Below, one piece after another: positions 2,551 through 64,000 of a stretch of DNA of 64,000 bases (within the stretch, counting starts at the first letter, position 1; each line of letters begins with the position of its first letter). A program made the position numbers and the translations under genes. Below the pieces are notes generated by a model. The model was not told the origin of the DNA and searched no databases. It worked only from the letters and a program-made list of their open reading frames with translations. The stretch is from Geothrix fuzhouensis (GTDB lineage: Bacteria > Acidobacteriota > Holophagae > Holophagales > Holophagaceae), in assembly GCF_024609325.1 (NCBI RefSeq), contig NZ_JANHMQ010000002.1:62001-126000 (forward strand), read 5' to 3'.

Positions 2551-2688
2551 GGGGTCCAGTACCGGGAAAAGAGAATCGGGCCGTGACTTCGGTCCGGGCC
2601 ATCCGTGGGCCGGGCATGGGATGCTGAGGCCGGGAGGTTGCCCCATCATGGCCAGCGTCGGGTGGAAAGAACAGAGAAAGGTGTGTCC

Positions 2689-4152
2689 GTGGATGCACCC
2701 CTGATCCTGGCCCTGGGGCAAGCCTGGCTCCGCGAGCGGGGAGAGCTTCCCCTGGAGGCCGTCTGGGCCTCGGGCCGGGCCCTGGGCCTGCGCTGGGCCG
2801 GACGCAAGCATTCCGAGGGTTGGGTGCTGCTGCTGCAGCCGCGGCCCGAGCTGTGGCTGCTGGGGGTGGACCACCCCGCCTGGACGCGCCTCCAGGCGGA
2901 AGCGCCCAGGGAGAGCGGGAAGGTCTGGGCCCCATTTCTGGTGGGAGCCCGGCTGAAGGCCGTGGAGGGGGATCCCCGGGAACGCTGGCTGGGCCTGCAC
3001 TTCCAGCGGCGGGCCATCACCGGGCGCCTGGAGACCCTGCGCCTCGCCTTCCAGGCCATCCCCGGCCGGGCCGGCATCCGGGTGGATGGCCTGGATGTGC
3101 AACTCCCCCGCCTGGGCTTGGGGTCGCCCTTCCCTGCGGCGGCGCCGGAACCGCAGGAAGAGCCACCTCCCTATCGACGCTGGCGGGAACAGTGGGGCCC
3201 CGACCTGGACCGCGCCCTGGCGGGGGAGATCCCTGAGGTGCTCGAGGGCGAGGGCAGTCTGCTGGACCGGCACCGGGCCTGGTCCGAAGCCCGGGCGGAG
3301 GCGCTCATCCTCCAGCCCGCCAAAGCCGCCGCGGAACGGAAACGCCAGACCGAGGCCGCCCGGATGGAACGCCTGGCCCAGGCCCTGGCCCGGGACCGGA
3401 CGAAGCACTTGGCAGTGCTGCCCCTGAAAGTTCAGGCCCAGCGCCTGTCGGGGGAACTCTACCGGTTGAAGGGCGTCACGCGGGAAGCGGTGTTGCTGGA
3501 TGGGACCCGGATCCCGCTGCCGGAGGGGGCCCCGGTGGAGACGGCCGTCCAGACCTGGTTCGCGGCGGCCAAGAAGGCTGAGCGGGGCCTCTCACGGGTG
3601 GCCGAACTGGAAGCGGAACTCGGGGCCGAGCGGGCCGCCTGGGCGAAGCGGATGGAGGCGGAAAGCGGAGGCCTTGCGCCTGGGCCCCTTCCCGCGAGAC
3701 AACCAATCGGGAAGGGCGCGGCGAAGGGCCAGAGCACCTCGAAGGGCAAGGGGACGAAGCGGATGCAGGCAGAAGGCAAGCGCAAGGATGGAAAGGGCGT
3801 GGCCTTCCGGAGCGTCATGGTGGACGGCTTCGAGGTTCTCATCGGCAAGGGCGATGCTGAGAACGACCAGCTCACCTTCAAGGTGGCCGAGAACACGGAC
3901 TTCTGGCTGCACGTGGCCAGCGTACCGGGCAGTCACGTGGTCATCCGCAACCCCGACAAGCTCAGCGAGCTGCCGCGGCATGTGCTGGAGCGCGCCGCCG
4001 AGCTGGCCGCCTACCACAGCAAGGCCCGCGACGGCGGCAAGGTGGAGGTCCACCTCGCCCGCATCGCCGACATCAGCAAGCCCCGCGGCTTCGCACCGGG
4101 CAAGGTGATCCTCAAAAAGTGGATTGGCATCCGCGTTTATCCCAAACCGTGA
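2689..4152 (+). CDS. NFACT/RqcH (Rqc2)-like RNA-binding protein
   Basis: A 487-residue protein related to the NFACT family (bacterial RqcH/FbpA, eukaryotic Rqc2/NEMF), which binds obstructed large ribosomal subunits and recruits tRNA-Ala to tag stalled chains. The diagnostic part is the C-terminal NFACT-R domain (about residues 380-487), with FWLHVASVPGSHVVIRNP and a following helix rich in AELAAYHSKAR. A charged, coiled-coil-like middle (about 205-340) and a low-complexity Lys/Gly linker precede it. The N-terminal domain is divergent. I chose GTG at 2689 because AAAGG lies seven bases before it; an in-frame ATG at 2605 lacks such a site. The last 13 codons, stop included, are repeated 105 bp downstream (separate entry). 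The gene is convergent with the SPOR gene. Confidence 0.8.
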   Translation: MDAPLILALGQAWLRERGELPLEAVWASGRALGLRWAGRKHSEGWVLLLQPRPELWLLGVDHPAWTRLQAEAPRESGKVWAPFLVGARLKAVEGDPRERWLGLHFQRRAITGRLETLRLAFQAIPGRAGIRVDGLDVQLPRLGLGSPFPAAAPEPQEEPPPYRRWREQWGPDLDRALAGEIPEVLEGEGSLLDRHRAWSEARAEALILQPAKAAAERKRQTEAARMERLAQALARDRTKHLAVLPLKVQAQRLSGELYRLKGVTREAVLLDGTRIPLPEGAPVETAVQTWFAAAKKAERGLSRVAELEAELGAERAAWAKRMEAESGGLAPGPLPARQPIGKGAAKGQSTSKGKGTKRMQAEGKRKDGKGVAFRSVMVDGFEVLIGKGDAENDQLTFKVAENTDFWLHVASVPGSHVVIRNPDKLSELPRHVLERAAELAAYHSKARDGGKVEVHLARIADISKPRGFAPGKVILKKWIGIRVYPKP

Positions 4153-4257
4153 CCAGAATCGGAGAAGGGCGGATGGAGCGCAAGCGATGTCTCGCGTATC
4201 GCCGCAGGCGATATGGAGAAGAAATGGGTGAGTATCCGCGTCTATCCGAAGCCGTAG
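4114..4257 (+). repeat. Tail duplication A: last 13 codons of the NFACT gene repeated after a palindrome
   Basis: The end of the gene (4114-4152, KKWIGIRVYPKP-stop, TGA) recurs at 4219-4257 (KKWVSIRVYPKP-stop, TAG), offset exactly 105 bp. Seven of 13 codons differ, two of them non-synonymously, plus a changed stop. The 66 bp between the copies contain no stop in the frame of the gene. They hold the palindrome TCTCG-CG-TATCGCC-GCA-GGCGATA-TG-GAGA at 4190-4219, whose right arm abuts the second copy. A 26-base stretch (4188-4213) is identical to 35827-35852. Read in frame, the palindrome encodes SRIAAGD. The unit looks like an inserted mobile palindrome with a second gene tail, not simple slippage. 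Confidence 0.85.
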
Positions 4258-35732: not shown

Positions 35733-36073
35733 GAGCCTGTCCGGGTAATTGGAATACCCAGGGCCTGTTTTCAAATTGGGTGTGAGCCGCGACGTCGGCC
35801 AGCCGCGTCCATGGCAGATGTCGGTTTGTCTCGCGTATCGCCGCAGGCGATACCGAGAAGGCGGGGGCCGAAGGGCGATGCGGGACATCGTTCGAGGCCG
35901 CCAACGCAGCCAGGGGTGCGGTTGGCTGACGTCCCGTAGGGCAAGGGGCGGCGCCCGGCGCGATGCTGCGTCAAGCTCCTCGTCGATAGTGCCGCTATCG
36001 CCTTCGTCGCTTTCCTGGCCTCGCTTGGGCGGCGCCCCTTGCGCGGCCGCACCCCAATTTGAAAACAGGCCCT
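35733..36073. mobile_element. Small non-coding inverted-repeat element (MITE-like), possibly nested
   Basis: AGGGCCTGTTTTCAAATTGGG at 35760-35780 is matched by its perfect 21-bp complement at 36053-36073. No transposase is inside. Inner segments also pair: 16-bp near-perfect arms GCAAGGGGCGGCGCCC at about 35941 and GGGCGGCGCCCCTTGC at about 36027. The palindrome TCTCG-N2-TATCGCC-GCA-GGCGATA-CC-GAGA lies at 35829-35858. A second, weaker end (GAGCCTGTCCGGGTAATTGG, 35733-35752) sits directly outside the left end. CTAG at 35729-35732 and 36072-36075 could be a four-base target duplication of the YTAR type used by IS5-family elements. I infer a transposase-less IS5-related relic. Confidence 0.65.
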
Positions 36074-40941: not shown

Positions 40942-41508
40942 ATGCCTCTGATCCTTGCCACTCAGGTTCGCGCCGGGATGATCGTCAACTTCGAGAACGA
41001 GCTCTGCCGCGTCATCAGCGTCGAGCATCAGACCCCCGGCAACCTGCCGGCCCGGGTCCAGGTGAAGATGAAGCGGCTCAAGGACGGCATCAACCGGGAG
41101 AACCGCTTCGGCAGCTCCGACAAGGTGGACAAGGCCAGCCTCGAACAGCACATGCTGGAGTTCCTCTACGAGGACGGCAGCAACCTCGTCTTCATGAACA
41201 ACGAGACCTACGAGCAGCTGGAAGTGAGCAAGGAGATCCTCGGCGAGGACATGGTCTTCCTCGAGCCGAACATGCAGGTGGAGATCGAGTTCTACGAGGG
41301 CCAGCCCATGGGGGCGACCCTGCCTCCCAGCGTCGTGCTGGAGATCGTGGAAACCGATCCCGTCATGAAGAACGCCAACGCCACAGGCTCCTACAAGCCC
41401 GCCAAGCTGGACAACGGCATCACCGTGGGGGTCCCTCCTTACATGGAGGCGGGGCAGAAGATCCGCGTGAACACGGTGGATCGCACGTTCATGGAGCGGG
41501 TGAAGTAG
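40942..41508 (+). CDS. efp: Translation elongation factor P
   Basis: A 188-residue factor that relieves ribosomes stalled at proline runs. It has the three barrel domains and the C-terminal signature GVPPYMEAGQKIRVNTVDRT. I chose ATG 40942 because it matches the family N-terminus (LATQVRAGMIVNFENELCRV). Residue 34, at the loop tip that enters the peptidyl-transferase centre, is Asn (HQTPGNLPARVQ) rather than the Lys or Arg that many bacteria modify. Aligning PGN with E. coli PGK needs no gap. The last 17 codons are copied 105 bp downstream (separate entry). Confidence 0.95.
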   Translation: MPLILATQVRAGMIVNFENELCRVISVEHQTPGNLPARVQVKMKRLKDGINRENRFGSSDKVDKASLEQHMLEFLYEDGSNLVFMNNETYEQLEVSKEILGEDMVFLEPNMQVEIEFYEGQPMGATLPPSVVLEIVETDPVMKNANATGSYKPAKLDNGITVGVPPYMEAGQKIRVNTVDRTFMERVK

Positions 41509-41613
41509 TTCTGCTCTCCCTTCGGCGGGGAGGCCTTGCGCATCGCCACAGGCGATACCAAGAGAATCCACGTGAACACGGTGGAGCGCACATTCATGGA
41601 ACGCGTGAAGTAG
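41458..41613 (+). repeat. Tail duplication C: last 17 codons of efp repeated after a palindrome
   Basis: 41458-41508 (KIRVNTVDRTFMERVK-stop) recurs at 41563-41613 (RIHVNTVERTFMERVK-stop), offset exactly 105 bp, the same as at the NFACT gene. Of seven changed codons, four are synonymous or conservative. The 54-bp spacer is open in the frame of efp and encodes GGEALRIATGDTK. It contains ATCGCC-ACA-GGCGAT (41542-41556), whose centre lies ten bases before the second copy, as at the NFACT locus. Confidence 0.85.
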
Positions 41614-41733
41614 ACTCGTTCGCAACACACAAGGGCCCCGGTAGGCAGATGCCGCCGGGCCTTGTTCTGTACGAATTCCGCCGGACGAAATTCCAACCAC
41701 GCGGTAAAGTACTGGTCGCCCGGTCCTCTGGTG

Positions 41734-43714: not shown

Positions 43715-44335
43715 TCATGGGCGGGCGGGAGGCGTCCGTTTGGCCCAGAGAGGATAGTCGATGCCTGCCAGCCGGTTGATGAGGATGGCCTGGACGGTCA
43801 GCAGGGCCACCGCCAGCAGCATGATGGCGAGGTGCATGGGCTTGGTGATGATGCCCAGCGAGACGATGAGCGTCGTGGCGCCCGCGGGGGGATGGGCCGC
43901 CTTGAAGAGGATCATGAGGGCGCCCGTGGCGGCCAGGGACAGGGCGGCGGCGGCGATGCGGGCGGGATCCACACCCATGACCATGGCCGGGGGCGCATGC
44001 TGCAGGCCCACCAGGCAGAGCGCGCCATAGCCGCAGGCGATGCCGATGATGTGACCGTAGATGGTGTGGCGGGGGCTGGCAGAGGGTAGGGTGGGCGAGA
44101 AGAAAAAGAGGAACGCCGTGGGCCCCAGCGAAGGAAAGACGAACGGTGTCCGGGTGAGCATGGCCAGACCTGCCAGCAGGCCGATGGTGACCAGGCCGTT
44201 GATGAACATGAAGGCGGCCCAGAGCTGGCGTTCGGGGAACTGCCCCAGAAGCGCCGTGAGGCGGAACCTTGCCATCAGGCCGCGGGTGACGCTGGGCTCC
44301 AGCAGCTCCAGGGGGGGGCGGCGATCGGGGGTCAT
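43715..44335 (-). CDS. HPP-family membrane protein
   Basis: A 206-residue membrane protein with about four to five helices. It carries the family motif AAHPPAGATTLIVSLG and the earlier LGPTAFLFFFSPTLPSASPRHTIYGH. HPP proteins of plants and cyanobacteria are linked to nitrite transport. In this Mo-enzyme operon a role in nitrite or nitrate movement is plausible but inferred. It starts 40 bp after a small membrane protein gene and is followed closely by moeA. Confidence 0.85.
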   Translation of the reverse strand: MTPDRRPPLELLEPSVTRGLMARFRLTALLGQFPERQLWAAFMFINGLVTIGLLAGLAMLTRTPFVFPSLGPTAFLFFFSPTLPSASPRHTIYGHIIGIACGYGALCLVGLQHAPPAMVMGVDPARIAAAALSLAATGALMILFKAAHPPAGATTLIVSLGIITKPMHLAIMLLAVALLTVQAILINRLAGIDYPLWAKRTPPARP

Positions 44336-58039: not shown

Positions 58040-58129
58040 ATAAGGAGGCGCCTATCTGGTCGATCAGCCTGAAGACTTCCCACACCGTCCACCCAACCGC
58101 AGTTTGACTCCCTTTAAGGAGAATGCAGC

Positions 58130-60772
58130 ATGCAACACCGACCTTTGAAACAGCTCTGCGGCCTGATCGCCACCGCAGCCATCGCCCTGGTGCTGATCGG
58201 CTGTAACGGCAAGACAGGCCCCGCCGGTGCGAACGGCACCAACGGCACCAATGGTACCAACGGCACCAACGGCACCAATGGTACCAACGCCAGCATCACC
58301 CTCAACGCCGCTCAGCTCACCACCAGCGAGTGGAGCCAGCTCACCCTGGACGGCACCGTGAACAGCGTCACGATGGGTGGGGCGCCCATCGTGAACTTCA
58401 AGGTCACGGACAAGAACGGCGTTCCGGTCATCGGCCTCGCACAGAAGGATGCCACCACGGGCAAGTACCTCAATTTTGGCTTCTCCCTCGCGAAGCTGAT
58501 GCCCACCGACGCAGCGACGGGCCTTCCAACCCGCTGGGTCAACTACATCGTCTTCGGTTCGACGCCGACGGCGGGGACGATCCCCAAGCCGGGCTTTGCG
58601 AGTGTCGAGAACAGTGGCACCCTGACCGATAACCTGGATGGCAGCTACACCTATACCTTCAACCTCGATGTCACCAAGGTCAAAGGTTATGTGGACGCGT
58701 CAGTGGATGATGCCACCCACCTCAAGGCTGATCTGGACGACCTGACCTACGACCCGGCCAAGACCCACCGTCTAATCGTCATCGTGGGCGGAAACCAGCC
58801 CGGGACCACCACCCCGGTCCTGACATCAGCCAATTTCTCCTACGATTTCATCCCCTCCACCGGAAATCCAGTTTCGGCCACTGATACCAGCCGGGTGATC
58901 GTCGATGAGGCGTCCTGCAACGCCTGCCACACCAAGCTGTCCATGCATGGCGCCCACCTTCCGACGCTCCAGGCCACGAAGATGTGCGTGGTGTGCCACA
59001 CCGAACAGCACAAGTACGGCGCCACCGAGTCCCTTCCGGCCACGGGCAACGTCTTGATTCCCGGGGCCTACGGGGTCTACACCGCCAAGCTGCAGGACCG
59101 GGCGCTGCCCAACTTCCCGAACATGATCCACAAGATCCACATGGGTGAGGAGCTCTACTACCAGGGCTACAACCAGTTCGGCGTCCAGTACAACGAAACG
59201 ACCTATCCACAGGATCTGCGGAACTGCACCAAGTGCCACACGGCGACCAACGCCGCCACCCCCCAGGGCGACAACTGGAACACCACCCCCAGCCGCCTGG
59301 CATGTGGTGCCTGCCATGACAGCATCGTCTGGGCGACCGGTGCCAACCACCCCGGTGGCGCTCAGACCAGCGACCTGAACTGCACCTCCTGCCACGGGGC
59401 CGCCGGCGTCAAGCTCAACCACATCCCCGTGTCCCCCAAGAACGACGCCTTCGCCACCGGCGCCTACACCAACGGCGCATACCTGGCCGGCGACCGCAAC
59501 AACCTGCCTCCGGGCGCCATCAAGGTCGACTATGACCTGAAGAGCGTCACCCTCGACGCGACCCGCCACCCGGTGTTCACCTTTAAGTTCAAGCAGACCC
59601 TCAACGGCACCACCTCCGACGTCGTCTTCAACACCTACGCGGCCGGCTCGGTCACGGAGATGATGGACAACTTCGTGGGCAGCCCCAGCGTCTACATGGC
59701 CTTCGCCGTACCGCAGGACGGCATCACCGCCCCGGCCGACGTCAATGCCACCCTCAGCGGCTACATCAAGGGCCTCTGGAATGGCACGGCGGTGGTTCCG
59801 AAGACCACGACCCCGTTGGGCACCATGACCGGGCCTGATGCCAGCGGCTACTACACCATCACGCTGACTGGTTACACGGTGCCTGCCAACGCCACACTGA
59901 TTCGCGGTGGCCTCGGATACACCTACAACAAGAACAGCCAGCCCCTGACCCAGACGAACGTTCCGAATCTGGGCACCACCAGCTTCGCTTACGATCCCGT
60001 CACCATGCTGGGCGGACTGAGCGTTCCCGCGCCCAACAAGTTCATGACCGTCAGCGGCTCCACTGCCCGTCGCAACATCGTGGACACCGCCAAGTGCAAT
60101 GACTGCCACAAGACCCTCGGCGTCTTCACCGCCTCCGCCTACCATGCGGGCGAGCGCAACAACGCCGAGTCTTGCCACTTCTGCCACAACCCCAACCAAT
60201 CCAGCAGCGCCTGGAGCGCGAATGCCAGCACCTTCATCCACGGCATTCACGGAGGCGGCAAGCGGACTGTGCCCTTCACCTGGCACGCCACCTCCGCCAC
60301 GGACACCTTCGCGAGCGTGACCTACCCGGCCATCCTCAACAACTGCGAGGCCTGCCACGTTTCCGGGTCCTATGACTTCAGCAACAGCACCAACGCTGCG
60401 GCCATCCCGAACATGCTCTTCTCCACCGTGGGCAAAGGAATCTACAACGGCGCCTCGGCCACGGCCTATACGCTGTCTCCGTATGTCGTGAAGGACAATG
60501 TCACAGACTACGGCACGGGCCCCAGCTACGACGCTGTCAACGGCGTGTTGATCACCAACGCCACCACGGCGAACAACCTGGTCAATTCACCGATCACCGG
60601 GGCTTGCGCCTCCTGCCACGACTCCTCGGCGGCCGTCGCCCACTTCAAGGGCAACGGTGGCTCGTTCTATGAGCCCCGCGCGACGGCGCTCCTCAAGGTC
60701 GAGCAGTGCATGGTCTGCCATGGTTCCGGCCGCACGGCCGACATCAAGGCCGTCCACATGACCTTCAAGTAA
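58130..60772 (+). CDS. OmcA/MtrC-family decaheme outer-membrane cytochrome (first copy)
   Basis: An 880-residue surface lipoprotein for extracellular electron transfer. The signal ends at the lipid Cys25 (ALVLIGC). Immediately after is a collagen-like Gly-X-Y stretch, residues 27-53: GKT, GPA, GAN and six GTN. Beta-sandwich domains alternate with two heme domains of five CxxCH each: at about 262 (CNACH), 288, 366, 394, 418 and 656 (CNDCH), 682, 740, 826 and 862 (CMVCH). This 5+5 split matches OmcA/MtrC, with the second domain ending at the C-terminus. It follows the porin and smaller cytochromes, and GGAG precedes the ATG. Confidence 0.95.
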   Translation: MQHRPLKQLCGLIATAAIALVLIGCNGKTGPAGANGTNGTNGTNGTNGTNGTNASITLNAAQLTTSEWSQLTLDGTVNSVTMGGAPIVNFKVTDKNGVPVIGLAQKDATTGKYLNFGFSLAKLMPTDAATGLPTRWVNYIVFGSTPTAGTIPKPGFASVENSGTLTDNLDGSYTYTFNLDVTKVKGYVDASVDDATHLKADLDDLTYDPAKTHRLIVIVGGNQPGTTTPVLTSANFSYDFIPSTGNPVSATDTSRVIVDEASCNACHTKLSMHGAHLPTLQATKMCVVCHTEQHKYGATESLPATGNVLIPGAYGVYTAKLQDRALPNFPNMIHKIHMGEELYYQGYNQFGVQYNETTYPQDLRNCTKCHTATNAATPQGDNWNTTPSRLACGACHDSIVWATGANHPGGAQTSDLNCTSCHGAAGVKLNHIPVSPKNDAFATGAYTNGAYLAGDRNNLPPGAIKVDYDLKSVTLDATRHPVFTFKFKQTLNGTTSDVVFNTYAAGSVTEMMDNFVGSPSVYMAFAVPQDGITAPADVNATLSGYIKGLWNGTAVVPKTTTPLGTMTGPDASGYYTITLTGYTVPANATLIRGGLGYTYNKNSQPLTQTNVPNLGTTSFAYDPVTMLGGLSVPAPNKFMTVSGSTARRNIVDTAKCNDCHKTLGVFTASAYHAGERNNAESCHFCHNPNQSSSAWSANASTFIHGIHGGGKRTVPFTWHATSATDTFASVTYPAILNNCEACHVSGSYDFSNSTNAAAIPNMLFSTVGKGIYNGASATAYTLSPYVVKDNVTDYGTGPSYDAVNGVLITNATTANNLVNSPITGACASCHDSSAAVAHFKGNGGSFYEPRATALLKVEQCMVCHGSGRTADIKAVHMTFK

Positions 60773-60780
60773 TGTCCCCC

Positions 60781-60862
60781 GCCAGGGCGCGGCTCGCCGC
60801 GCCCTGGCGACAATTAACCGTCACAATCGAGGACCCGGCTGCCTTCCAGCACCGGGTCCTCG
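60781..60862 (+). terminator. Two consecutive hairpins after the first decaheme gene
   Basis: Hairpin 1 (60781-60808) is a perfect 13-bp stem GCCAGGGCGCGGC with a TC loop. Hairpin 2 (60828-60838 and 60852-60862) is CGAGGACCCGG / CCGGGTCCTCG followed by TTATCATT. The first lacks a T-run; the second is the better terminator. Together they separate the cytochrome operon from the next gene. Confidence 0.7.
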
Positions 60863-60947
60863 TTATCATTCTGCCCCCTGCCGACAGGGTTTGTTGACAA
60901 CCCCGCCGTGCCGACTGGAAAATCGTGCTCCGGCTCTTGAGGTCCCC

Positions 60948-61355
60948 ATGAAGAATCCCCTGCTGATGATGACCTTGGCCCTTCTGGCCACGTTTGCTCC
61001 CGCCCTGCCAGCCAGGGCCCAGGAAGACTTCGAGTCGCCCCGGAAAACGGAATCCAAGAGCGCCAAGGCCGCCAGGATCGCCAAGACCAAGGCCGCCGCG
61101 GCGAAGGCCAGGGCGCGGGCCAAAGCGAAAGCCGAGGCCGAGGCCAAGGCCATCGACATCAACAGCGCCACCAAAGACCAGCTGAAGACCCTTCCGGGCA
61201 TTACGGACGCCTACGCCGACAAGATCATCGCCGGCCGTCCCTACCCCTCCAAGGCCTTCCTGGTGACGAAGAACATCCTGCCCAACGACCTCTTCCAGAC
61301 CTTGCGAAAGCAGATCGTGGCCCGTCAGCCCGCCGCGAAGCCACAGACTCGGTAG
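60948..61355 (+). CDS. Secreted helix-hairpin-helix protein (ComEA-like)
   Basis: A 135-residue protein with a signal peptide (MKNPLLMMTLALLATFAPALPARA) and a Lys/Ala-rich helical linker (about 35-68). The C-terminal HhH motif is IDINSATKDQLKTLPGITDAYADKII. ComEA-type proteins bind DNA in the periplasm and are used in DNA uptake. Here it sits between two decaheme cytochrome genes, flanked by terminators on both sides, so it is a separate unit. I chose ATG 60948. Whether it takes part in competence or merely uses the fold is open. Confidence 0.8.
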   Translation: MKNPLLMMTLALLATFAPALPARAQEDFESPRKTESKSAKAARIAKTKAAAAKARARAKAKAEAEAKAIDINSATKDQLKTLPGITDAYADKIIAGRPYPSKAFLVTKNILPNDLFQTLRKQIVARQPAAKPQTR

Positions 61356-61373
61356 AAACCCCACCACTCCAGT

Positions 61374-61401
61374 AAAAAGCCCCAGGGAACGGGGGCTTTT
61401 T
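61374..61401 (+). terminator. Terminator after the helix-hairpin-helix gene
   Basis: AAAAAGCCCC (61374-61383) and GGGGCTTTTT (61392-61401) with an eight-base loop; the T5 run is in the right arm. Confidence 0.85.
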
Positions 61402-61456
61402 GTTGTACGGACGCCGAGGTCCTTTGTGTTGAGCACTTTGCAGAATGTCACGCGAC

Positions 61457-61474
61457 TCGTGACATGAATCACAA
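61457..61474. promoter_or_regulatory. Crp-type operator before the second decaheme gene
   Basis: CGTGACATGAATCACAA, the palindrome GTGA-N6-TCAC, matches 15 of 17 bases of the site before the Crp-family gene at 41734-41750. It overlaps a second palindrome, TGTCACG-CGACT-CGTGACA (61446-61464). A -10-like TAGATT lies about 24 bases past its centre, the same distance as at 41.7 kb. Confidence 0.65.
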
Positions 61475-61604
61475 CGGCGGTTGACTCGTTAGATTACCGG
61501 AGGATCCTCATTGACGAAATCAGGAGAAGGCAGTGGTCCTTGGCGGTCAATGCTTCTCCTTGCGCCCGAAGGTCTACAGTCCGAACCCCGAAGGAGGATG
61601 AACC

Positions 61605-64000
61605 ATGCAACATCGACCTTTGAAGCAACTCTTCGGCCTCGTCGCGGGTGCCGCCGTCATCCTGCTGCTGGTCGCCTGTGACGGTAAGACAGGCCCAGCC
61701 GGCGCCAACGGGACCAACGGCACCAACGGGACGAATGGCACCAACGGGACCAACGGCACCAACGCTGTCCTCACCGTGAATGCCGCCCAGTTGACCAACG
61801 ACCAGTGGGCGAAGCTCACCCTCAAGGGCACGGTCAACAGCGTCACCATGGGCGGTGCGCCCGTGGTGACCTTCACCATCACGGATGGGGTGGGCACACC
61901 GGTGAGCGGGCTCGCCGCCAAGTCGGCGAGCGGGAACTACACCAACTTCGCCTTCGCGATCTCCAAGCTGGTGCCGGGGACCAACGGCAGCCCCAGCCGC
62001 TGGGTCTGCTACAACGTGGTGACCACCCCGGCGACGGGTCAGGCGGCCGTGCCCTACTTCACGGAGCCCGAGAACAACGGGACCCTGAAGGACAACCTGG
62101 ACGGCACGTACACCTACACCTTCGCCCTGGACCTTACCAAGGCCAAGGGCTACGTGGACGGGGCCGTCTATGACGCCAACCACCTCAAGTCCGACCTCGA
62201 CGATCTGACCTACGACCCGACCTTGACCCACCGTGTGATCGCGTCCGTGGGCGGAAACCAGCCTGGCACCACCACCCAGGTGCTCAGCTCGGCGAACCTC
62301 TATTACGACTTCATCCCCTCCACCGGGAAGCCGGTCGCGGCCACGGATACGGAGCGGGTGATCGTGGACATCGCCTCCTGCAACACCTGCCACACGAAGC
62401 TGGCGATGCACGCCAACTTCTTCCCGGCCATCAACGACACCCACCTGTGCGTGGTGTGCCACACCGATCAGCTGAAGTACGGCAGCGGCGATTCCCTGCC
62501 CGCCTCCGGCAACGTCCTGCTGGCCAACGGCGTCTACGGCAGCACCCAGAAGCTGCAGGGCATGGCCCTGGCCAACTTCCCCAACATGGTCCACCACATC
62601 CACACCGGTGAACTCCTCTACTACCAGGGCTACAACCAGTTCTGGGCCTATAACGAAGTCACCTATCCGCAGGACCTGCGGAACTGCACCAAGTGCCATG
62701 CCCAGTCCACCGCCGCCCCCCAGGGTGACAACTGGACCAGCGTCCCCAGCCGCCTGGCCTGTGGCGGTTGCCACGACTCCATCGTCTGGGCCACCGGCGT
62801 CAACCATGTGGGCGGCGCCCAGACCAGCGACCTGAACTGCGCCAGCTGCCACGGCGCTTCGCAGATGCAGGTGATCCACACTCCGCTCGTCGCACCAGAT
62901 GTCGCCGGCTTCGTGCCCGGCAGCCACACCAACGGTTCGTACATCGCGGACTACAAGAACATCCTGCCCGCGGGCGCCCACCAGATCACCTATGACATCA
63001 AGAATGTCACGGTGAACAGCAGCAACCAGCCCGTCGTGACCTTCCGGTTCATGAAGGACGGCACCGCGGTGGCCTTCAACGCGGCTCCCGCCGCCGCGGA
63101 TGCCACGGTCGAGCTCATGCCGGGCTACATCGGCAGCCCCAACTTCTATGTGGCCTTCGGTGTGCCCCAGGATGGCATCGCCGCTCCGGCTGATTGGAAT
63201 GTCACGCTCAGCGGCTACATCAGGAATGTCTGGAACAAGACTGCCGCCACGAACCTTGGCACCACGGCAGCGCCGAACTATGTCCCTACCGGAACCATGA
63301 CTGGTCCGGATGCCGATGGGTATTACCAGCTGACCCTGACTTACGCGTCGATTCCGGCCAACGCCACGCAGATCACGGGCGGTATTGGGTATGTCTACAG
63401 CTACAACTCGCTGCCTCTGACGCAGATCGACCTGCCGGCCTACCCCTATGACCCGACCACCAAACTGGGCGGCCTGAGCGTGCCCGCGCCCAACGTGGCC
63501 AAGCTGGTCAGCGGCACTCTTCCGACGGGCTTCGCCGCCCAGACGGCCCGGCGCGCCATCGTCAGCAATCAGAAGTGCAACGACTGCCACGCCTATCTGG
63601 GCGTCTTCACTGAGAAGGTCTACCACGCCGGTGAACGCAATGATGCGCCGACCTGCACCTTCTGCCACAACGTCAACCGCGTCAACAGCGGCTGGGGCGT
63701 GAACATCAAGGATGCGGTCCATGCCATCCATGCCGCCGACAAGCGGGCGAACAAGTTCTCGTGGGAAGTCTCCGCGGGCGACAAGTACTGGGAAATCACC
63801 TATCCGGCGATCCTGAACAACTGCGAAGCCTGCCATGTGCCTGGCTCGTACGACTTCAGCAACAGCACCAACGCGGCCGCCCTTCCCAACCTTCTGTGGA
63901 CGACGGTGGCCACTGGCACGACCCCGACTAACGTCAATGCCATCGTGACCGGCACCGAGACCGTACCCGGCGTCTACTGGTCGCCCTTCGCGGCGGCCTA
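61605..64000 (+). CDS. OmcA/MtrC-family decaheme outer-membrane cytochrome (second copy), cut by the window end
   Basis: The frame opens with ATG 61605 (GGAGG upstream) and stays open to the window edge, giving 798 residues so far. It is a close paralogue of the first copy. The N-terminus is MQHRPLKQL as there, the lipid Cys follows LLLVA, and then the same Gly-X-Y stretch GKT, GPA, GAN and six GTN. Eight CxxCH sites are visible (CNTCH, CVVCH, CTKCH, CGGCH, CASCH, CNDCH, CTFCH, CEACH), so two more are expected beyond the edge. It has its own promoter region with a Crp-type site, unlike the first copy, which sits in the porin operon. Confidence 0.93.
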   Translation, partial: MQHRPLKQLFGLVAGAAVILLLVACDGKTGPAGANGTNGTNGTNGTNGTNGTNAVLTVNAAQLTNDQWAKLTLKGTVNSVTMGGAPVVTFTITDGVGTPVSGLAAKSASGNYTNFAFAISKLVPGTNGSPSRWVCYNVVTTPATGQAAVPYFTEPENNGTLKDNLDGTYTYTFALDLTKAKGYVDGAVYDANHLKSDLDDLTYDPTLTHRVIASVGGNQPGTTTQVLSSANLYYDFIPSTGKPVAATDTERVIVDIASCNTCHTKLAMHANFFPAINDTHLCVVCHTDQLKYGSGDSLPASGNVLLANGVYGSTQKLQGMALANFPNMVHHIHTGELLYYQGYNQFWAYNEVTYPQDLRNCTKCHAQSTAAPQGDNWTSVPSRLACGGCHDSIVWATGVNHVGGAQTSDLNCASCHGASQMQVIHTPLVAPDVAGFVPGSHTNGSYIADYKNILPAGAHQITYDIKNVTVNSSNQPVVTFRFMKDGTAVAFNAAPAAADATVELMPGYIGSPNFYVAFGVPQDGIAAPADWNVTLSGYIRNVWNKTAATNLGTTAAPNYVPTGTMTGPDADGYYQLTLTYASIPANATQITGGIGYVYSYNSLPLTQIDLPAYPYDPTTKLGGLSVPAPNVAKLVSGTLPTGFAAQTARRAIVSNQKCNDCHAYLGVFTEKVYHAGERNDAPTCTFCHNVNRVNSGWGVNIKDAVHAIHAADKRANKFSWEVSAGDKYWEITYPAILNNCEACHVPGSYDFSNSTNAAALPNLLWTTVATGTTPTNVNAIVTGTETVPGVYWSPFAAA

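Follow-up and report, generated by a model that had tools for sequence, protein, structure and literature searches.

Target duplications of known bacterial transposons measure from a few to about 15 bp, and those of prokaryotic MITEs are likewise short. An IS110 transposase uses dRS3 palindromes in a Neisseria phage. To our knowledge, REP palindromes do not duplicate host DNA, RAYT elements do not duplicate stretches of about 70 bp, and no transposase produces a target duplication of that length. REP elements comprise GTAG and CGTC palindromes; the CGTC class, which includes the neisserial dRS3 and two rickettsial elements, has no dedicated transposase (PMC3733652). At the tag of the CGTC REPs, TGTC or CCTC is often found, AT forms the first stem pairs and no transposase is known (PMC3733652). 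In the neisserial NIME arrays, dRS3 palindromes (ATTCCC N8 GGGAAT) located near genes are separated by units of 30-160 bp (PMC3898611, PMC3046118). The Rickettsia palindromic elements, about 150 bp long, are inserted in frame inside ORFs (reviewed in PMC10969869).

The locus considered here is found in Geothrix fuzhouensis, in a stretch of 64,000 nucleotides that is called the window throughout. The end of the elongation factor P gene (T1) is followed there by a short hairpin (H) and by a second copy of the same gene end (T2). The two copies form a direct repeat of 53 nt with 87% identity and a start-to-start offset of exactly 105, flanking the hairpin. Among spacings of 60-400, this pair is the strongest close repeat of the whole window. 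The first-pass annotation had given the coordinates and the offset of this repeat correctly, and its claim of the same geometry at the NFACT locus was confirmed, with T1 ending at 4152, T2 at 4257 and an offset of 105. As it had also held, the two genes are unrelated (EF-P and an NFACT-R protein according to Pfam), and the first stop codon is followed by an open frame of 35 codons including the terminal stop in both cases. At efp, positions 41509-41613 give exactly 35 codons with TAG at the end and the translation FCSPFGGEALRIATGDTKRIHVNTVERTFMERVK; at NFACT, positions 4153-4257 read PESEKGGWSASDVSRIAAGDMEKKWVSIRVYPKP. The correspondence of RIATGD in the former with RIAAGD in the latter was likewise right, RIAxGD being what the hairpin core common to both encodes in one frame.

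Table 1. Features of the efp and NFACT loci and of a further hairpin copy; positions are those of the window.
Feature	Position	Strand	Evidence or remark
efp (elongation factor P)	40942..41508	+	Pfam EFP_N, EFP, Elong-fact-P_C; last 53 nt are T1
T1 of efp, first copy, functional 3' end of the gene	41456..41508	+	direct repeat D20, 87% to 41561-41613
Stretch from stop codon to hairpin, efp locus	41509..41532	+	homologous stretch in other species with the efp insertion
H at efp, 31-nt bulged hairpin GCCTTG[C]GCATCGCC-ACA-GGCGATACCAAGA	41533..41563	+	
T2 of efp, second copy of the 3' end	41561..41613	+	native terminator next, as in the empty site of congeners
GC-rich inverted repeat and T-rich stretch, 3' of T2	41631..41668	+	sequence comparison
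NFACT-R family gene	2605..4152	+	Pfam NFACT-R_1; gene end is T1 (4114-4152)
H at NFACT, GTCTCG[C]GTATCGCC-GCA-GGCGATATGGAGA	4189..4219	+	
T2 of NFACT	4219..4257	+	offset 105 from T1
Third H of the window	35828..35858	+	within a palindromic MITE-like element; without gene-end duplication

The palindrome ATCGCCnnAGGCGAT has seven matches in the window with at most one mismatch, against 0.21 expected. One of these core matches (44027-44041, one mismatch) is missing the outer helix and is probably unrelated coding sequence. The MITE-like element around the third hairpin (35760-36073) has 32-nt terminal inverted repeats that are 84% complementary, and its relatives with different terminal repeats recur genus-wide. 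In a comparison of the H copies located inside such larger TIR-bearing MITE-like palindromes (class A), gene-end duplication was not found.

In the genus, H follows efp in six of the 24 genomes with this gene, including that of the window, and the site is empty in the other 18. The empty site of congeners corresponds to T2 and the terminator behind it. The inverted repeat with the T-rich stretch behind T2 is probably the native efp terminator, and species lacking the insertion conserve it beside the stop codon. In most other species carrying the insertion, the efp offset is 104, which is out of frame. The stretch preceding H at a given locus is alike between species, which indicates that species share the insertions through descent or exchange.

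Across 102 distinct family copies, H is 31 nt long (GTCTCG[C]GTATCGCC-nnn-GGCGATACCGAGA); its stem has 13 bp and a single bulged base, and 3 nt form the loop. This structure is recovered when H is folded as single-stranded DNA, with z-scores of -2 to -6 against shuffled sequences. The stem shows covariation at pair 12-20 (GC 82, CG 11, AT 3), pair 13-19 (CG 86, GC 13) and pair 4-27 (CG 79, TA 19). It is thus maintained by compensatory changes, which points to selection for the folded form. The H pattern was found in 61 of the 93 class-level genomes searched, the fixed search pattern missing strongly diverged copies, and is confined among them to Holophagaceae, the family of the window itself. 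The named records with H belong to Geothrix and Holophagaceae, except for MAGs labelled just Acidobacteria and one labelled Deltaproteobacteria. As to a strand bias relative to replication, the H matches within single contigs occur on both strands and track the gene orientation.

The arrangement T1-H-T2 occurs at about 26 unrelated target genes in Geothrix and in at least eight Holophagaceae genomes of other genera. Loci were collected by pattern searches and then taken as stretches, with one genome per species. In total, 106 H copies with a duplicated adjoining flank formed 20 clusters by the left flank, and further targets from other genera brought the number of genes to about 26. When left and right flanks were re-paired at random, six of 1403 pairs satisfied the detection rule. 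Apart from efp and NFACT, which were scanned with profiles, the target genes were recognised from their translations; they include rpsT, polA, folP, thiC, uppS and genes of a mannose-1-phosphate guanylyltransferase, an APC permease and adenosine deaminase. The genome of the window itself carries further loci at a moeB-like gene (offset 105), at the end of a biotin-carboxyl-carrier-like gene (157), at another gene of the latter kind (170) and at one more place (104). The same target genes with the same offset are found in other Holophagaceae genera.

The distance from T1 to T2 is 102-108 bp in 20 of the 26 target genes, a single class 7 bp wide, and the remaining six have 68, 69, 155, 157, 170 and 178. 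This clustering has a binomial tail of about 2e-19 after correction for the choice of the range, under the assumption of independent families and of offsets uniform over 60-200; each gene contributes one of the 26 offsets, in some cases the most frequent of several, and a common origin is possible for some gene clusters. The defined mechanism that the first-pass annotation had suspected behind its two loci, in place of two accidents, is strongly supported by the preferred offset and by the start of T2 at the 3' end of the hairpin. Its proposed check, an alignment of all such loci on the palindrome to look for one length and one frame, bore out the length, in so far as 105 represents the main class; this length is not universal. 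The fixed frame was not borne out. The offsets per gene are distributed over the three frames as 7/9/10, efp is mostly at 104, and targets with an antisense hairpin at the gene 5' end occur. A conserved in-frame insert is thereby ruled out as the rule.

H is located in sense orientation at gene 3' ends and in antisense at the 5' ends, as in moeB, folP, uppS, the guanylyltransferase, the permease and polA; gene 5' ends account for about half of the loci. At every locus T extends from H back into the gene and never in the opposite direction. In every family T2 begins within a few bases of the 3' end of H, a condition that the detection rule also contains. The base at -1 of the left join is A, often as part of an AAG or AAA codon. 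In every hand-checked locus the H/T2 junction lies after codon position 1; composition alone predicts about 73% per locus, so that this constant phase is largely explained by composition and carries little weight.

Among the described systems, REP palindromes are the closest to H. Like them, H is a short hairpin with a covarying stem that occurs in many copies per genome at gene borders (PMC3733652). It approaches the CGTC class in having cGTC, tGTC, gGTC or gCCT before the stem and AT in the inner stem. Searches for Y1 and IS110 found no transposase linked to H. The GTAG tag of the REP/RAYT kind is not conserved at the listed H copies, where GTC or CCT precedes the stem. Unlike REPs, H possesses an additional outer helix with one bulged base, has a loop of 3 nt and lacks a CCA tail. 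It falls outside both the GTAG definition and the strict CGTC one, which asks for a CGTC, TGTC or CCTC tag directly before an AT-starting stem of 8-9 bp, a loop of 4-5 and the CCA tail; in H, the GTC is separated from AT by TCGCGT, which pairs in the outer helix. A fixed-length duplication of gene ends was not found described for REPs, and no description of the H/gene-end duplication structure was found in open full texts.

The T-H-T-H-T arrays resemble NIME arrays in their layout, with palindromes spaced by short repeat units, and the H variant ATCCCC nnn GGGGAT resembles dRS3. However, the spacing units here are copies of gene ends, for which reason the arrays were not assigned to NIME; in the NIME sources consulted, RS units are described as repeat families rather than copies of an adjoining gene end, and no fixed 105-bp geometry is reported. 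H shares with prokaryotic MITEs its non-autonomous nature, the inverted repeat and the genus-wide distribution, and is also present inside TIR-bearing MITE-like elements, but most H loci have a duplication of about 70 bp in contrast to the short ones of MITEs. Similar to the Rickettsia palindromic elements, H occurs within or next to numerous unrelated genes that stay intact, whereas here the gene end is duplicated, the frame is not kept and the stop codon remains in T1.

Since H with its left edge takes up about 33-39 nt, the 105 class corresponds to 65-75 bp of duplicated host DNA. In fresh loci the agreement of T1 and T2 reaches H: this was found for 68 nt in L149, for rpsT together with its terminator in L154, and for about 117 nt in L099 and L125; in L149, L154 and L125 the two copies are near-identical. 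As in a target-site duplication, the host repeats abut H in these fresh copies and the tail is single at the empty efp sites. At older loci, efp and NFACT among them, the match is limited to the coding part up to about the stop codon, as would be expected of relics, and the full original length of the duplication at these two is extrapolated from the other loci. T2 decays through frameshifts (L014, L121) or loss of the stop codon (L134, L182), and T1 retains its native stop. In each of the six families tested, T1 and T2 share more identity inside a genome than across genomes (permutation P 0.0002 to 0.008). This excess, which demonstrates statistically the homogenisation of T1 and T2 inside genomes, indicates that the copies are homogenised or renewed. 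The arrays are present at many loci and, wherever their end is seen, close with a T that no H follows, usually the most divergent copy. Other genes (L082, L081, L141) carry arrays with a shorter period of 67-71 bp and up to six H consecutively (G006, C7:98256-98622).

The loci have in common the same H, a fixed junction and a preferred offset, and both empty sites and T-H-T-H-T arrays occur. On balance, H is probably a REP-like, non-autonomous palindrome restricted to Holophagaceae, whose insertion produces a long and nearly fixed target duplication of about 70 bp and preserves the gene. H would enter near a gene boundary, and the adjoining host DNA, mostly 65-75 bp, would be duplicated back into the gene. 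T1 would be the intact end kept by the gene, and T2 the copy beyond H, starting from its exact 3' end. The insertion itself may make the duplication through a pair of strand cuts spaced about seven helical turns, or through a single-strand equivalent. Later recombination between the T copies could amplify, homogenise and precisely remove units, which would explain the patchy presence across species. The secondary length classes (68-69, 155-157, 170 and 178) count against such a long duplication, as they show that the ruler is not absolute, and so does the fact that no insertion was caught between near-identical strains in a set with one genome per species. It also counts against it that Y1 and IS110 transposases are both absent from the genome of the window, that no enzyme was tied to H, and that the T1 and T2 of folP and thiC are strongly divergent. 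It is possible, and put forward tentatively, that an undescribed Holophagaceae recombinase inserts the bare hairpin of about 35 nt and copies a ruler-measured 70 bp or so of host DNA, thus restoring the gene end. Reading the length classes as helical turns (73.5 bp for 7, 126 for 12, 147 for 14) or as an SSB footprint (65 nt) offers suggestive numbers only.

The main rival is slippage or template switching at a pre-existing H. The polymerase would stall at the hairpin, re-start upstream and re-copy the gene end with no dedicated enzyme, the re-start site being a short match to the 3' end of H (GAGAAG) where A, often as AAR, stands at -1. The strong hairpin, the tandem arrays and a join that always has A on both sides, often in an AAG or AAA codon, agree with this. 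However, re-starting by chance does not account for 20 of 26 loci in a length range of 7 bp, and a tandem duplication of T-H predicts a terminal H, where the arrays seen end in T. Slippage is an unlikely source of these loci.

A relic of horizontal replacement, where a foreign gene end with H was recombined in so that T1 is foreign and T2 is the old native end, is suggested by two genes. A terminator-like hairpin (GGGGACCGCTCC...GGTCCCC) shares sequence with the native folP start. In G001, G057 and G010, the insertion lies within the native coding start, and the native start with the hairpin is left outside as T2, which speaks for insertion with a target duplication. The new start of these three, MWAELTSxPLFIGILNL, also occurs in G051, where H is no longer visible, and this T1 is unlike both T2 and the start native to most congeners. 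The two copies of thiC in G001 and G021 are different orthologous tails: T1 is like that of G011 and G053, and T2 like the commoner type of the genus. This strong divergence implies that T1 was exchanged or remodelled after insertion, at least there, and folP and thiC favour recombination for these two loci, with the offset left unexplained. Another possible reading of the folP T1 is a copy freed from the overlap with the terminator hairpin. Against replacement as the general origin, the two copies from one genome are, on average, more similar to one another than to those of other genomes in the six tested families, and neither the fixed offset nor the fixed H/T2 junction is accounted for, which makes it unlikely.

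H might also be a REP mobilised on single-stranded DNA by a Y1 transposase of the IS200/IS605 type (RAYT), with the gene-end copy as a by-product of one-ended transposition. The bulged hairpin of REP size and the covariation, which speaks for selection of the folded form, are in line with this. The Y1 family (PF01797) is absent from the genome of the window and from 42 of the 47 genomes of the genus; four genes fetched from the five genomes that have it are not flanked by H, and there is no GTAG tag. Mobilisation of this kind is decidedly unlikely. The weakest reading, an in-frame coding element whose H-T2 would be reached by read-through and supply an alternative C terminus as in the Rickettsia elements, is extremely improbable. 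The 35-codon open stretch at both window loci and the junction phase speak for it, but the phase is mostly predicted by composition, the offsets spread over three frames (efp being at 104 in most species), T1 retains its stop, T2 decays and the 5' ends do not permit a C-terminal reading. A diversity-generating retroelement (TR/VR) was rejected: T1 and T2 also differ at positions other than template A, and the targets are housekeeping genes.

The repeated finding of the hairpin with a copy of about 70 bp of the gene end at essential genes (rpsT, efp, polA, folP) implies an undescribed mechanism of insertion or copying with a length ruler. If the recombinase with ruler-measured copying proposed above were true, H would be a mobile element that repairs its own target by a fixed-length duplication. 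The H loci also offer a natural test bed for the movement of short palindromes without a recognisable transposase, a question left open for the CGTC repeats (PMC3733652). The duplicated ends are in addition a source of small gene-end remodelling, for example in folP. The overlap of the folP start with the terminator-like hairpin of the upstream gene is conserved in most congeners (L296-L325), and in the species with the insertion the start codon is moved and the two are separated. The ThiC C termini (L326-L355) are of at least two distinct types within the genus, suggesting an exchange of gene ends between species.

Elsewhere in the window, an Rfam scan gave a tRNA as its sole hit. Positions 58116-63912 hold two long tandem gene copies with blocks of 74-82% identity about 3460 bp apart and CTKCH heme-binding-like motifs, which are probably duplicated multihaem cytochrome genes.
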